64,000 bases of DNA from Sorex araneus (Eukaryota; Chordata; Mammalia; Eulipotyphla; Soricidae): the NCBI RefSeq assembly GCF_027595985.1, contig NC_073303.1:100412328-100476327 (forward strand). The letters are read 5' to 3'. Under the pieces are notes generated by a model, which made no database searches, was not told the DNA's origin, and saw only the letters and a list, made by a program, of their open reading frames with translations. The translations under genes and the position numbers were made by a program. Positions 1 through 61,018 of the stretch are shown in pieces; within the stretch, counting starts at the first letter, position 1, and each line of letters begins with the position of its first letter.

Positions 1-241
1 GGAGCAATAGCACAGAGGGTAGGGCGTTTGCCTTGCACATGGCGACCCGGGTTCAATTTCTTCGTCCCTCTCGAAGAGCCTGGCAAGCTACTGAGAATAT
101 CCCACCCGCAAGGCAGAGCCTGGCAAGCTACCCATGGCATATTCGATATACCAAAAACAATAACAACAGGTCTCACGATGGAGACGTTACTGGTGCCCGC
201 TTGAGCAAATCAATGAACAACAGGATGACAGTGCTACAGTA
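1..241 (+). mobile_element. SOR-R SINE (RTE-tailed), cut by window start
   Basis: tRNA-type head with A box (tagcacagagggtaggg) and B box (gggttcaattt) in the first 60 bases, then the body with two 'agcctggcaagcta' repeats. The 3' end is gatgacagtgctacag without poly-A. The opening ggggct of the head lies outside the window. Pol III-transcribed non-coding retroposon; the 3' tail matches the RTE end at 3.54-3.62 kb. Confidence 0.93.
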
Positions 242-3540: not shown

Positions 3541-4400
3541 ACTTCATCACTTGTCATTTGTATCACTTGTCATCCCGTAGATCTTTGATTTGCTCGAGTG
3601 GGTGCCAGTAATGTCTTCATTTGTCCCTGTCACATGCTAGTGTAGCCCAATGATATCTGCTCGCTCCAGGAACAGGAAGAGTCCCAAATCTCTCATTCAG
3701 GGTTTTGACGAAGTCTGACCATCTCCTTGGTGGGCAGCCACGCGGTCTTTTGACATCCCGTGGAATCCAGTTGGTAACAGCTATAGTCCAGCGGTCATCT
3801 TTGAAACGCATTACGTGTCTGGCCTATCTGATTTTTGACACCTTGGCAAATAAGACAGCGTCCCTGATTTTTGACCATCAATGGAGGTTGGAACTCTGGA
3901 TCCTTCTCTCACTTGAGTGAAATGTGATACTCCAAGCATAGCTCTTTCCATTCCTCTTTGGGATACCCGAATACTGTTCTCATCCTGTTTGCATAGGGCC
4001 CAGTCTCTGAGGCACATGTTAGTGCAGGAAGAACGGTGGAGTTGAAAAGATGTGCCCGGAACCGGAGGTTCTTCATCCTCTTAACCACCTCTTCGATGCT
4101 CTTGAAGGTGTTCCATGCTGCTCTCTTCCTCCTGTGCAGTTCTGGTGCCAAGCCTTCCTCATGTTGAGTTCTCGACCCAGGTACACATAGCTGCTGCATT
4201 TGGAGATATTCGTTCCATTGAGAGCAAACGGAATGTCAGGAACATCATTTTGCTGAGATTCAGCTGCAGTCCAAACTTTCCACACTCGCAGTTGAAGTCG
4301 GCCAGCATTTGTGCCGCTTGGCTAATGTTTGGCGTTATAAGAACGATGTCATCTGCAAAGAGGAGGTGGTGTAGTTGCCGACCATCAATCTTCACAAAAC
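3541..4400 (-). mobile_element. RTE-clade LINE, 5'-truncated 3' fragment
   Basis: About 860 bases of a non-LTR retrotransposon. Its 3' end is at the low-coordinate side, where a tcacttgtcat word is repeated twice as a terminal short repeat with no poly-A, as expected for RTE. The coding part runs almost to the 3' end, so the 3' UTR is minimal. It is decayed by frameshifts and stops and cannot be active. The residue pattern (FADDIVLITPNISQA, NGTNIS, SSYVYLGRE) resembles nematode-type RTE elements rather than ruminant BovB; that judgement rests on memory of family sequences. Confidence 0.85.
3604..4395 (-). pseudogene. RTE reverse transcriptase C-terminal remnant
   Basis: Read from 4395 downward the fragments are, in order: (1) RT palm with the catalytic F-A-D-D motif and ITPNISQAAQMLADF (about 4395-4260); (2) after a frameshift, NGTNIS..SSYVYLGREL and the R-KRAAW segment (about 4260-4075); (3) KSIEEVVKRMKN..RAHLFNSTVLPAL (4130-4020); (4) a WTIAVTNWIPRDVKR-type segment ending HWATLACDRDK (3811-3617). 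The next codons, after a TGA where W is expected, read RHYWHPLEQIKDLRDDK. Endonuclease and N-terminal RT parts are absent. At least three frameshifts and one stop make it a pseudogene. Confidence 0.85.
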
Positions 4401-4802
4401 TTCATAAAGTTATCAATCCTTTAAAACCATTATGTTGTATTCCATTTTATGAATGGATCACAATTTAATCAGTCCTCAATTAACATTTAAATTAGGTCTC
4501 ATTAGCATACACAAATAGGGTGAGCATAGAGGACTTTTGAAGCAAAACTTCCTTGCTCCACATGACCCTACAATGGTGAATACCTGTCATTAGACATTGG
4601 TCAAACCAGAGAATGACCCCAACCCAAATGACCCCTAAAGCAAACTATAGGCATGGGATGATGATAATATCTCATTGGAGGTTCATTAATTGCAATAAAT
4701 TTCCCCGTCTGGTGATAAAGAAGGAGTGCAGGTGTGGAAACAGGGGCGCTTGGGAACTTCACTTTCCTATGAATCTAAAACTGTTCTTAAAAATGTATTA
4801 AT
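4401..4802. other. AT-rich single-copy DNA
   Basis: No repeat recognised. It lies between the truncation point of the RTE and a SOR-A insertion. Confidence 0.45.
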
Positions 4803-6093: not shown

Positions 6094-6343
6094 TGTAGCA
6101 CTGCAGCACTGTCGTCCCATTGTCCATCCATTTGCTCAAGCGGGCACCAGTAACATCTCCATTGTGAGACTTGTTCTTACTGTTTTGGCATATCGAATAT
6201 GCCATGGGTAGCTTGCCAGGCTCTGCCGTGTGGGTGGGATACTCTTGGTAGCTTGCCAGGCTCTCCGAGAGGGACAGAGGAATCAAACCTAAATCGGCCG
6301 CATGCAAGGCAAACGCCTTACCCTCTGTGTTATCACTCCAATT
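6094..6343 (-). mobile_element. SOR-R SINE with target-site duplication
   Basis: Full-length inverted copy ending in a gtagcactgcagcactg-type tail. Flanks aggcccaaaatac (6081-6093) and aagcccaaaatac (6344-6356) are a 12/13 target-site duplication. Only 21 bases separate its head from the next SINE in the opposite orientation. Confidence 0.95.
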
Positions 6344-21074: not shown

Positions 21075-21235
21075 GGGCTGGAGCGATAGCACAGCGGGTA
21101 GGGCGTTTGCCTTGCACGCGGCCAACCCGGGTTCGAATCCCAGCATCCCATATGGTCCCCTGAGCACCGCCAGGGGTAATTCCTGAGTGCAGAGCCAGGA
21201 GTAACCCCTGTGCATCGCCAGGTGTGACCCAAAAA

Positions 21236-22970: not shown

Positions 22971-23219
22971 ACTGTAGCACTGTAGCACTGTCCTCCCATT
23001 GTTCATCGATTTGCTCGAGCGGGCACCAGTAATGTCTCCATTGTGAGACTTGTTGTTACTGTGTTTGGCATGTTGAATATGCCACGGGGAGCTTGCCAGG
23101 CTCTTCTGTGTGGGTGGGATACTCTCGGTAGCTTGCCAGGCTCTCCAAGAGGGGCGGAGGAATCAAACCCAGCTCAGCCACATGCAAGGCAAATGCCCTA
23201 CCCACTATGTTATCGCTCC
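22971..23219 (-). mobile_element. SOR-R SINE
   Basis: Complete inverted copy. Its terminal repeat is two actgtagc units before 'actgtcctcccattg'. Body 'ggtagcttgccaggctctcc' is present twice in related form. Confidence 0.95.
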
Positions 23220-24797: not shown

Positions 24798-25203
24798 TCT
24801 CCTGCCCCCGTTCCTGGCTGTCTTCATTGGGGCCCCTTGGAGGGGGGCAGGCTGAGTTTCCCTCCATGCCCCAAGCAGAGCCCCGGCAGCCGAAGACCTC
24901 TAGAACCCAGTCACAGCCATGCTCAAGGCCCCTCTCTACATGCTTGGATGAGCCTCACACATGAAGGAACCGGCAGAGGAACCCAGGTGTGCAGATCTCC
25001 AAGACTGCTCAGATCGGGACTGGGCCTCCTCCACCCAGATCCCCCATTTTCCAGTAGCTAGGCAGTCACACTCACAAACTGCCCCCCCAACCCTTCTCAT
25101 ACCATGTAATCCCATCAACAGTCAAGATCCAGAAACTATAAAACAAAGCTCCCAAAAGTGCGCAGCTGCATTCACAGCCGAGCCACGTCTTATTGTCTAC
25201 TTG
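24798..25203. other. single-copy DNA
   Basis: Nothing recognised. Confidence 0.45.
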
Positions 25204-25467
25204 TCTCTCAGAGAACCTGGCAAGCTACCGAGAGTATCCTGCACACAGCAGAGACTGACAAGCTCCCTGTTGCATATTCGATATGCCAAAGAGAGTAACA
25301 ATGATGGGTCTCATTCCCCTGACCCTAAAAGAGCCTCCAATCGACACCGTTGGGAAAAATGAGTAAAGAAAGGCTGCTAAAAATCTCAGGGCTAGGACAA
25401 ATAGAGACATTACTGGCACCTGTTCGAGGAAGTTGATGAACAGTGGGATAACAGTGATACAGTGATA
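25204..25467 (+). mobile_element. SOR-R long variant, headless
   Basis: Starts in the body (tctctcagagaacctggcaa), lacking the tRNA head. After 'gccaaagagagtaacaatga' it has about 80 extra bases absent from other copies (25310-25390). It then runs into gacaaatagagacattactg and the RTE-like tail. In one frame the tail reads DK-stop-RHYWHLFEEVDEQWDNSD, longer and closer to the RTE C-terminus than in ordinary SOR-R. Confidence 0.8.
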
Positions 25468-25471
25468 TGGT

Positions 25472-27934: not shown

Positions 27935-28345
27935 CTTGGGACAAATGTGTATGAAGGGTCATTGGCTCATTGGTGGAGGGAAGTTGATATTCTGTTGAAG
28001 CAATGCTTGCATGAAACTATCAATAACAGTATTGTAAACCATGGTAGCACAGTAGCACTATCATCCCGTTGCTCATCGATTTGCTTGAGTGGGCACCAGT
28101 AACGTCTCCATTGTGAGACTTGTTGTTACTGTTTTTGGCATATCGAATATGCCACGGGTAGCTTGCCAGACTCTGCCGTGCGGGCAGGATACTCTCAGTA
28201 GCTTGCCGAGCTCTCTGAGAGGGACAGAGGAATCGAATCTGGGTCGGCCACATGCAAGGCAAACACCCTACCCGCTGTGCTATCGCTCCAGCCCTGTGAA
28301 CCCATGGTAAACCATGGTACCTCAATAAATATGGGAGAGGACAAA
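27935..28345 (+). mobile_element. L1 3' end, older subfamily (split by SOR-R)
   Basis: 'ttggctcattggtggaggga', 'tgcatgaaactatcaataac' and 'agtattgtaaaccatggta'. After the SINE, the 'accatggtacctcaataaat' end follows. Same terminal subfamily as 6.6 kb. Confidence 0.55.
28047..28297 (-). mobile_element. SOR-R SINE inserted in L1 end
   Basis: Complete inverted copy with head at 28.29 kb. A gtaaaccatggta word flanks both sides (28034-28046 and around 28307-28319). The right side is slightly rearranged, so the exact duplication is uncertain. Confidence 0.94.
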
Positions 28346-40939: not shown

Positions 40940-41175
40940 AAGCACTGTAGCACTGTCCTCCCATTGTTCATCGATTTGCTCAAGCGGGCACCAGTAATGT
41001 CCCCATTGTGAGACTTGTTACTGTTTCTGGCATATCGAATATGCCATGGGGAGCTTGCCAGGCTCTGCCTTGCGGGCGGGATACTCTTGGTAGCTTGCCA
41101 GGCTCTCCGAGAGGGACGGAGGAATTGAATCCGGGTTGGCTGCGTGCAAGGCAAACGCCCTACCCGCTGTGCTAT
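40940..41175 (-). mobile_element. SOR-R SINE
   Basis: Inverted; head ends at gctgtgctatt, so the outer ggggctggagcg is lost. Tail repeat actgtagcactgtcc. Confidence 0.94.
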
Positions 41176-41845: not shown

Positions 41846-42090
41846 CTGTCACTGTCACTGTCATCCCGTTGCTCATCGATTTGTTCGAGCGGGCACCAGT
41901 AACGTCTCTCATTGAGACTTATTGTTACTGTTTTTGGCATATCCAATACACACGGGTAGCTTGCCAGGCTCTGCCGTGCGGGCTCCATACTCTCGGTAGC
42001 TTGCCGGGCTCTCCGAGAGGGGCAGAGGAATTGAACATGGGTTGGCCACGTGAAAGGCAAAAGCCCAACCACTGTGCTATCGCTCTAGCC
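41846..42090 (-). mobile_element. SOR-R SINE, TGACAG-tailed, in (CAA)n
   Basis: Inverted copy with ctgtcactgtcactgtcatc at its 3' end, meaning a 6-base tail unit. Both flanks are (CAA/CAATAA)n, so it landed in or generated a CAA microsatellite. One frame reads RRYWCPLEQIDEQRDDSDSD. Confidence 0.95.
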
Positions 42091-43327: not shown

Positions 43328-43447
43328 TCTTCCAAGCTCATTCATTCATATTCTGGTCCTTTCAAACTCATTCCTCCACGCTACAGTCCTTCCAAGCTCA
43401 TGTCTTCATGCTACTGGTCCTTCCACTTTTATTCATTCATGCTATTA
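43328..43447 (+). repeat. about 30-base degenerate minisatellite, 4 units
   Basis: Units start 'cttccaagctcattcattca', 'ctttcaaactcattcctcca', 'cttccaagctcatgtcttca' and 'cttccacttttattcattca' and end in a ctggtc-like word. Confidence 0.85.
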
Positions 43448-43448
43448 G

Positions 43449-43693
43449 ACCAGGCTGGAGCGATAGCACAGCAGCTAGGGCGTTTGCCTTGCACACGGCT
43501 GACCCGGGTTCAATTCCTTCACCCCTCTCAGAGAGCCTGGCAAGCTACCAAGAGTATCTCACCCGCACGGCAGAGCCTGGCAAGCTCCCTGTGGCATATT
43601 CAACATGCCAAAAACAGCAACAACAAGTCTCACAATGGAGACGTTACTGGTGCCCGCTCGAGCAAATCGATGAGCCACAGGATGACAGTGACA
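43449..43693 (+). mobile_element. SOR-R SINE, full length
   Basis: Best full-length reference of the RTE-tailed family. Head caggctggagcgatagcaca, B box gggttcaattcc, two agcctggcaagct units, a caacatgccaaaaacagcaa linker and tail gagacgttactggtgcccgc to gatgacagtgaca. One frame reads WRRYWCPLEQIDEPQDDSDS. Target duplication gctattag (43441-43448 / 43694-43701). Confidence 0.97.
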
Positions 43694-43701
43694 GCTATTA
43701 G

Positions 43702-44858
43702 TCCAGAGCTGAACATTTAAATTGTCTCCATATCCTGGATGTTGTACTGTCTTCATGGATGTGCAGATAATCTTTTCAAAGGAATGTCTATGTCGTGGAG
43801 GGGGAGGGGGCAGTCATAGGTGTTGTTCATAGGTATTGTGGAGCAACGTCACTGAGTCCTACGGAAGCTCTCTTCTTACTTTGAGAAGCCCCCATACTAC
43901 TTTCCACAGAGCTGAAACAGAGAACGTGTGTGACAGTGAGTGAGGGACCCTCTCCCACTGCATCTTTCCCAGCACTGTTGCCTGGGTCTCTGATGGAGGC
44001 TGTGCTCAGGGCTGTGAGGTGATGCACCGCTGTTATTCTGATTTGCATTTCCCCATATAAGGAGTGGCAACAGCACTTTTTCCATACAGAAGGCACAACT
44101 CTCGACATTCAGGGGGCAGGTACTACCGTCCGGGAACTCTAAAGGCGGTTCCCTCCTCCGTGGCCATGCTGCTGGAAACCGGACAGTGCTGGCTAGCAGT
44201 CGGAGGCCTCCAGGAGGCTGGACATGTCTCCTCAGCAAAAGGTCTCCATCCGCTGCAGCCTGAGCCAGGAGGCCCAGACCTCATGTGCTCCCATCATTAT
44301 GAATCACACAGAAACTGGCCAACAAGGAGTTTCTCCAGGCCCCGCCAGCGTTGCATTCCCAACCGGCCCTTCCCCTGGTGCTTGTCAGATCCAGGTCCAA
44401 ATAATTTTAAGGAGGGAGGGACCCACTGCCCACCCAGGGAAGATGAAGCTGCGTCTCGGGTGCAATACTCTGGGGACACATGCATCCCACCGCCCCCAGT
44501 CCAGTTGTGAGTGGTGGAGTGATGGGCTCCCACCCAGAGGGCTACACTGAGGGGACAGAGATGGACTGCCCCTCCCAGGGTCACCCTCATTCCTGCTCTT
44601 ATCTCCAGGATCAGAGACGCTTCCACCTGGGACCTTCTCTATCTCTCCCTGCCCTCCACACACATGCACACGTGTCTCCAAGACTCTCCCTGTGAGAGGC
44701 GACAGGATGCACGGTCAGAGTCAATGTGTGCGTTGGGGGGCAGGGAGGGCGGGTGCCGCCGTGACACATGGTGAGTATACAACATGACACACAGCGTTGA
44801 AAATGGTCAGCTCAGGGCCAGACTGCCCAGGGCTTCTGTTAAGTTTCATGGAGGGAGT
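43702..44858. other. single-copy DNA
   Basis: Nothing recognised. The 148-codon plus frame 44064-44510 has no domain or splice support. Confidence 0.4.
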
Positions 44859-48935: not shown

Positions 48936-49125
48936 CTGTCACTGTCACTGTCATCCCGTTGCTCATCGATTTGCTTGAGCGGGCACCAGTAACGTCTGAT
49001 TGTGAGACTTATTTATTGTTACTGTTTTTGGCATATCCAATATGCCACGGGTAGCTTGCCGGGCTCTGTCGCGCAGGCACGATACTCTCGGTAGCTTGCT
49101 GGGCTCTCCGAGAGGGGTGGAGCTA
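48936..49125 (-). mobile_element. SOR-R SINE, 5'-truncated
   Basis: Tail ctgtcactgtcactgtcatc (6-base unit) and full body, but it ends at ctctccgagaggggtggagc. The tRNA head is missing, so it has no pol III promoter. Confidence 0.94.
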
Positions 49126-49801: not shown

Positions 49802-50160
49802 GGGGCTGGAGCGATAGCAGTGTGTTTGCCTTGCACACGGCCGACCCAGGTTCGATTCCCAGCATCTCATATGGTCCCCCAAGCACCACCAGGAGTAATT
49901 TCTTTTATTTTTTTTTTGGCTTTTTTGGTCACACCCGGTGATGCACAGGGGTCACTCCTGGCTCTGCACTCAGGAATTACCCCTGGCGGTGCTCAGGGGA
50001 CCATATGGGATGCTGGGAATCGAACCCCGGTCGGCTGCATGCAAGGCAAACGCCCTACCCGCTGTGCTATCACTCCAGCTTCATCCCAGGAGTAATTTTT
50101 AAGCACATGAGCCAGTAGTAACCCCTGTGCATCGCTGGGTGTGACCCCCCCCCCAAAAAA
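49802..50160 (+). mobile_element. SOR-A SINE split by a nested SOR-A
   Basis: Left part 49802-49901 with head lacking the bases 3' of the A box (gcgatagcagtgtgtttgcc); right part 50086-50160 ending C9 A10. Outer flanks aaaagactcccag (49788-49800) and aaaagacttccag (about 50161-50173). Confidence 0.93.
49902..50085 (-). mobile_element. SOR-A SINE nested in SOR-A
   Basis: Target duplication ccaggagtaattt (49889-49901 / 50086-50098) is perfect. Complete inverted copy. Confidence 0.97.
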
Positions 50161-56844: not shown

Positions 56845-57080
56845 ATTTTAAGCACAGCAGGTAGGGCATTTGCGTTACACGTGGCCGACCTAGGTTCAAT
56901 TCCTCTGTCCCTCTTGGAGAGCCTGGCAAGCTATGGAGAGTATCTCGCCTGCACGGCAAAGCCTGGCAAGCTCCCCGTGGCACATTTGATATGCCAAAAC
57001 AGTAACAACAAGTCTCACAATGGAGATGTTACTGGTGCCTGCTCGAGCAAATCAATGAGCTATGGGATGACAGTGATACA
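56845..57080 (+). mobile_element. SOR-R SINE, head shortened, TSD
   Basis: Starts agcacagcaggtagggcatt. Tail gggatgacagtgatacag. A/T-rich flanks gaatatatattacat / gaatatatcatatacat support a duplication. Confidence 0.93.
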
Positions 57081-60805: not shown

Positions 60806-61018
60806 AGCACTGCAGTATTGTCATCCCATTGTTCATCAGTTTGCTTGAGCGGGTACCAGTAACGTCTCCATTGTGAGGCTTGTTGTTACTGTTTTTGGCA
60901 TATCGAATACTCCATGGATAGCTTGCCAGGTTCTTCTGTGCAGGTGGGATACTCTTGGTAGCTTGCCGGGCTCTCCAAGAGGGATGGAGGAATCAGACCC
61001 AGCAAACGCCCTACCCGC
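60806..61018 (-). mobile_element. SOR-R SINE with internal deletion
   Basis: The head keeps only 'caaacgccctacccgc'; the B box is partly deleted. A/T-rich flanks aataatacatgta / aataatatgtgta suggest a duplication. Confidence 0.9.

Follow-up and report, generated by a model that had tools for sequence, protein, structure and literature searches.

The SOR-R copy and related elements in the window

The repeat under study is a copy of the SINE SOR-R at positions 43453-43694 (+) of a 64,000-nt window of Sorex araneus, the window being the whole stretch of DNA that was analysed. The sequence-only reading had assigned this copy to 43449..43693, which agrees within a few bases. By sequence comparison, SOR-R is composed of three modules: the head of the Sor SINE, a slice of the 5' UTR of an RTE element, and the last 17 RTE codons, which are followed by terminal repeats. 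The copy is surrounded by a 13-bp target-site duplication, in which 12 of the 13 positions are alike. The features of the window are as follows.

1..233 (+), SOR-R copy, incomplete because the window begins within it
3563..4401 (-), RTE fragment, broken reverse transcriptase end to C-terminus and tail (Pfam RVT_1; strongylid and Sorex fumeus relatives)
6107..6340 (-), SOR-R copy
22986..23219 (-), SOR-R copy
24798..25470 (+), headless RTE deletion derivative (no Sor head), with 5' module, body, leader and RTE 3' end
28056..28293 (-), SOR-R copy
40951..41175 (-), SOR-R copy
41853..42090 (-), SOR-R copy, the one at 41.85 kb in the sequence-only reading
43441..43453 (+), 5' target-site duplication GCTATTAGACCAG (flank comparison)
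43453..43515 (+), SOR-R module 1, tRNA-like pol III head as in the A-tailed Sor SINE (consensus comparison, 63/63)
43516..43632 (+), SOR-R module 2, RTE 5' UTR slice (consensus 64-174 against fetched RTE 5' regions, 80-94% identity in 8/9 and 10/13)
43633..43686 (+), SOR-R module 3, RTE 3' end with the last 17 codons in frame (translation; blastx to Nippostrongylus protein C-termini, 14/16 residues)
43687..43694 (+), terminal repeat agtgacag (sequence of the copy; ends of 20 copies)
43694..43706 (+), 3' target-site duplication GCTATTAGTCCAG (flank comparison)
48943..49122 (-), SOR-R copy, 5'-truncated
56851..57076 (+), SOR-R copy
60819..60993 (-), SOR-R copy, 5'-truncated

The tail of SOR-R and the RTE 3' end

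A DNA word that had been proposed to be shared by SOR-R and the RTE occurred 12 times in the window when up to three mismatches were allowed, compared to no occurrence in 100 shuffles. The matches comprised ten SOR-R tails, the 3' end of the RTE fragment (3591-3616, -) and the longer RTE-derived element (25405-25430). The final 50 nt of the SOR-R consensus gave 38-47 identities at 12 places in the window, and no more than 27 anywhere else on the two strands. Chance likeness of the SOR-R tail and the RTE 3' end was rejected, based on 0/100 shuffles and the gap between 38 and 27 identities.

All ten SOR-R tails were readable without a stop in the RTE frame, and the tail of the 25.4 kb element starts with a stop in this frame. 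The SOR-R consensus translates as WRRYWCPLEQIDEQRDD, the copy at 43.65 kb as WRRYWCPLEQIDEPQDD and that at 41.85 kb as ERRYWCPLEQIDEQRDD. The C-terminus of the RTE fragment in the window reads ..DK, a stop, RHYWHPLEQIKDLRDDK and a second stop, and Nippostrongylus RTE proteins terminate in WRRYWRPLEQIDDQRDDR (longer form DEWRRYWRPLEQIDDQRDDR). In blastx, 14 of 16 aligned residues were identical between the SOR-R tail and the Nippostrongylus C-termini, and all six matches listed fell at protein C-termini. Frame translation and nematode protein ends thus support the earlier claim that the SINE 3' end is derived from the RTE 3' end, including the C-terminus of the ORF. The shared 50 bases are native to the RTE, as named nematode proteins end alike, and do not mark an unrelated older element. 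Because the tail represents native RTE coding sequence, shared with the Nippostrongylus C-termini, the direction was from RTE to SINE. Folding of the tail revealed no excess stability (z -1.7 and 0.2).

The body of SOR-R is a slice of the RTE 5' UTR

Nine RTE copies were located with a Sorex fumeus protein and their 5' sides were fetched, and 13 further copies were chosen by their endonuclease end. Positions 64-174 of the SOR-R consensus (about 111 nt) were present in 18 of these 22 RTE 5' regions, 115-122 nt away from the start of the RTE ORF, the body being counted as present from 31 nt upward. In the first set it was found in eight of nine copies with 80-94% identity, lying 119-122 nt upstream of the ORF, and in the second set in ten of 13 copies, lying 115-122 nt upstream. 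The ninth copy of the first set and the remaining three of the second, i.e., all four regions without the body, were 5'-truncated. Three counts were borderline: L072 contained only the last 31 nt, L037 lacked the middle, and L033 had a truncated copy next to a separate SOR-R insertion.

In the untruncated copies the RTE sequence extends further upstream of the body, which is therefore an internal slice of the RTE 5' UTR. No Sor head was found upstream of the body in the RTE copies read. The RTE origin proposed by the sequence-only reading was accordingly right for the tail but too small, as the body also belongs to the RTE 5' UTR. Between the body and the RTE start codon lies a leader, which was open in the ORF frame in some copies. 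This leader (L034) matched the N-terminus of Haemonchus P0142 (77% over 43 aa, E 3e-21), and the RTE leader also matched that of the relative P0133 (71% over 59 aa, E 4e-28), both matches running into the ORF. Upstream of the leader no nematode protein match was found: blastx of the body and RTE 5' UTR against 228 non-Sorex relatives gave a best E of 0.065, with none at the expected place. The body itself had no match among the nematode proteins searched, and its worm origin is no more than possible.

The head of SOR-R and the joints between the modules

The consensus sequences of SOR-R and Sor were identical over the first 63 nt (63/63). Sor is a poly(A)-ended family without RTE body and tail, and we take the poly(A)-ended SINE of this genome to be the published Sor. 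In the window and the sampled places it was about three times commoner, with 84 full-head copies versus 29 SOR-R copies reaching the tail. In the available part of PMC8466645, Sor is given as a shrew T- SINE. As judged from its sequence, the head of SOR-R is a tRNA-like pol III head. ARAGORN called tRNA-Ala at 21079-21151 and 50005-50077, which are heads of A-tailed Sor copies, and one of the two also attained the Rfam tRNA cut-off.

The two consensus sequences diverge after these 63 bases, with ..GATTCCCAGCATCC in Sor and ..GATTCCTCCGTCCC in SOR-R, compared to ..AAAAGCCTCCGTCCC in the RTE, and the Sor/RTE joint in SOR-R is marked by a shared CC. The second joint lies within CTCACAATGG, where the 5' UTR ..CCTCA meets the 3' ..GACAAATGG. 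SOR-R was not classed as Sor, because none of 20 copies had an A-rich 3' end and the element carries just the Sor head.

Copy number and insertion marks

Sampling of 20 genome places, each 10 kb long and one consisting entirely of N, revealed 19 SOR-R copies, a density of about one copy per 10 kb. Scaled to the 2.4 Gb assembly, this extrapolation from the sampled places amounts to very roughly 240,000 copies. Target-site duplications were scored in those 27 of 29 SOR-R copies that extended far enough. Flanking repeats with a score of at least 9 were present in 11 of the 27 copies compared to 0.7% of mismatched pairs, and with a score of at least 7 in 15 of the 27 compared to 8.8%. Not one of 20 full copies had a run of A8 or longer near its 3' end, the ends being RTE-like terminal repeats. 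SOR-R thus has short terminal repeats and target-site duplications without poly(A), as in Bov-tA-type SINEs, and its 3' end is common to an RTE of the same genome, as also expected for this type. One SOR-R copy (L022:1738-1959) had its 5' part inverted beside the 3' part, as expected of twin priming. Four short proteins from ENA contigs of 518-717 bases (P0235-P0238) matched one frame of the SOR-R consensus at 70-85%.

Headless RTE derivatives

A further family has the body, leader and RTE 3' end fused without a Sor head; it was found at 24798-25470 of the window and in L006, L012, L017, L022 (twice) and L023. The leader of its consensus matched P0133 with an E of 6e-12 and Haemonchus P0142 with an E of 1e-4. 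The element at 24798-25470 possesses an extra 5' module of about 360 bp, which is shared with L012, L017, L019, L021 and L022. In L019, this module and the body were observed ahead of RTE C-terminal sequence, and the module may therefore represent the 5' UTR from a different RTE subfamily. In the weakly resolved body tree the headless family stood apart from SOR-R, and the two may thus have been formed separately.

The shrew RTE and its relatives

One open piece of the RTE fragment at 3563-4401 (-) reached 28.5 bits against Pfam RVT_1, just below the cut-off of 29.6, and the Pfam search with the other open piece gave no match. The read-through of the fragment had 533 relatives at E <= 0.001. 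Among the best 120 of these, the closest was a Nippostrongylus protein with 67% identity, and the named relatives were strongylid nematodes and Sorex fumeus only. A search from a Sorex fumeus protein yielded 586 relatives, of which the named ones among the best 120 were again strongylids and Sorex fumeus. Some RTE copies (e.g., at the L029-L037 loci) retain the start of the endonuclease as well as the C-terminus, with much of the reverse transcriptase missing, and the Sorex fumeus gene models P0046 and P0056 have the same form.

Based on its protein relatives, the shrew RTE would correspond to RTE1_Sar, which is likewise common to Sorex and strongylids and which, unlike SOR-R, is an autonomous LINE. 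The partner described as possibly horizontally acquired in the sequence-only reading is therefore of a type for which horizontal transfer between strongylids and Sorex has already been published, as stated in the available text of PMC6542046, and the acquisition of the LINE is not new here. According to the same text, the RTE is absent from other families of Eulipotyphla, with no hits in hedgehog, solenodon and mole reads and contamination excluded, and the shrew copies are nested inside nematode ones in a tree; an origin in strongylid nematodes was deduced there. The transfer was dated only as after the Sorex-Erinaceus split about 60 million years ago, and its direction was left unconfirmed by the copy-age analysis (PMC6542046).

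Source subfamily and relative age

In a weakly resolved tree, limited to rows having fewer than 40 gaps across the 111 columns, the SOR-R body is of the older RTE form. By raw identity, its tail is nearest to the young RTE consensus (45/50), versus 39-42/50 for three RTE copies sharing the DEQ residues. With the tail nearest the young RTE and the body of the older form, the source subfamily is unsure. Three of eight RTE copies with both ends fetched had a SOR-R-like, DEQ-type 3' end, and all three had the older 5' form; this pairing says little, because six of the seven copies with a readable 5' site have that form.

SOR-R copies diverged from their own consensus by 5.2% outside CpG (29 copies). 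The 11 best-scoring RTE 3' ends were 2.9% from the young RTE 3' consensus. Values of 13% for 12 other 3' ends, from copies chosen by N-terminal piece match and including a young one (L055), and of 15% for five 3' ends from window and sample both contain subfamily differences. For A-tailed Sor, the value obtained (divergence 0.139, sd 0.12) was left unused, as badly aligned rows were included. Dating SOR-R against the RTE by divergence, as had been suggested, gave a rough picture, which fits the order of old RTE, SOR-R and young RTE wave without proving it. As SOR-R holds both RTE ends, it cannot predate that RTE, and the possibility that the SINE was older was not borne out.

Origin and spread of SOR-R

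We consider it very likely that SOR-R is a three-module SINE in which the Sor head, about 111 nt of RTE 5' UTR and the last 17 RTE codons with terminal repeats were brought together by template switching, and which was spread by the RTE. With an RTE 3' end as its first template, the reverse transcriptase of the RTE would have skipped the interior to reach the 5' UTR and would then have switched to Sor RNA at the short CC match. RTE-clade chimeras by template switching have been reported for U6 in the available text of PMC4476161. SOR-R would spread by being transcribed by pol III from its Sor head and by having its RTE-like 3' end recognised by the RTE protein, i.e., through mobilisation by the RTE enzyme. 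A resident SINE head would thereby have exchanged poly(A)-tailed for RTE-tailed retroposition after the RTE had entered the genome.

SOR-R might instead be moved by L1 like Sor, with the RTE sequence as a passenger, as the identity of its head with the A-tailed Sor consensus might suggest; the RTE-like terminal repeats and the missing A8 runs in all 20 full copies make this very unlikely. An inverse course of events, in which the shrew RTE acquired its 3' end or 5' UTR from the SINE, appears extremely improbable. The lack of matches to the body in nematode proteins would agree with it for the body alone, but the C-terminus is present in named nematode proteins, and the body lies inside the RTE 5' UTR, where its distance to the ORF is nearly constant and where, in the copies read, RTE sequence and no Sor head was found upstream.

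The RTE could also be old and vertically inherited in shrews, its likeness to strongylid elements not being due to transfer. The sampled RTE copies are 10-26% from the young consensus, and the element is thus not brand new. However, the restriction of named relatives to strongylids and Sorex fumeus (best 120 of 533 and best 120 of 586) and the absence from hedgehog, solenodon and mole reads, with contamination excluded, in the available part of PMC6542046 leave vertical descent with very little likelihood, slightly less than that of mobilisation by L1.

SOR-R belongs to a known kind of SINE, its nearest parallel being Bov-tA, which is likewise paired with a horizontally moved LINE. The comparison with Bov-tA/BovB made in the sequence-only reading holds, as SOR-R is the counterpart of Bov-tA, with a tRNA-like head and an RTE tail. 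Bov-tA/BovB is given in a table row of PMC3747384 as a tRNA head on an RTE-clade tail, and BovB as horizontally transferred in the available text of PMC6542046. The two systems differ in the tRNA (Glu in Bov-tA) and in the LINE, which is of strongylid type for SOR-R, and for SOR-R both head and body were traced, to Sor and the RTE 5' UTR. Bov-A2, RTESINE1, MAR4 and RTE1-N1_LA combine an RTE 5' end with an RTE tail (available part of PMC3747384) and have no tRNA head, whereas SOR-R has one; the counterpart of Bov-A2 is the headless 24.8-25.5 kb element. Sor itself shares the first 63 nt of the consensus with SOR-R but lacks the body and RTE tail.

The pair of SOR-R and RTE was not found in the freely accessible papers searched. 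The term 'SINE' occurs 0 times in the main text of PMC6542046. The available part of PMC3747384 contains neither 'shrew' nor 'insectivor' and has no shrew pair among the mammalian rows of its SINE/LINE table, and there was none in the available parts of PMC4476161, PMC6009670, PMC8384839 and PMC12026660.

A resident mammalian SINE has probably replaced its poly(A) half by the two ends of an RTE of nematode origin, including coding sequence, and the resulting lineage would number very roughly a quarter million copies. A LINE acquired by horizontal transfer would then have generated a SINE of its own within the recipient, and thus seems to have been converted into an indigenous mammalian repeat. 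After BovB, this is the second example in mammals of a transferred RTE that has a tRNA-headed passenger. The SOR-R tail, reduced to 17 codons and repeats, may reveal what the RTE enzyme recognises. If SOR-R was possible only after the arrival of the RTE, the distribution of SOR-R insertions, shared or absent, among the shrew lineages would delimit when the parasite-to-host transfer took place.
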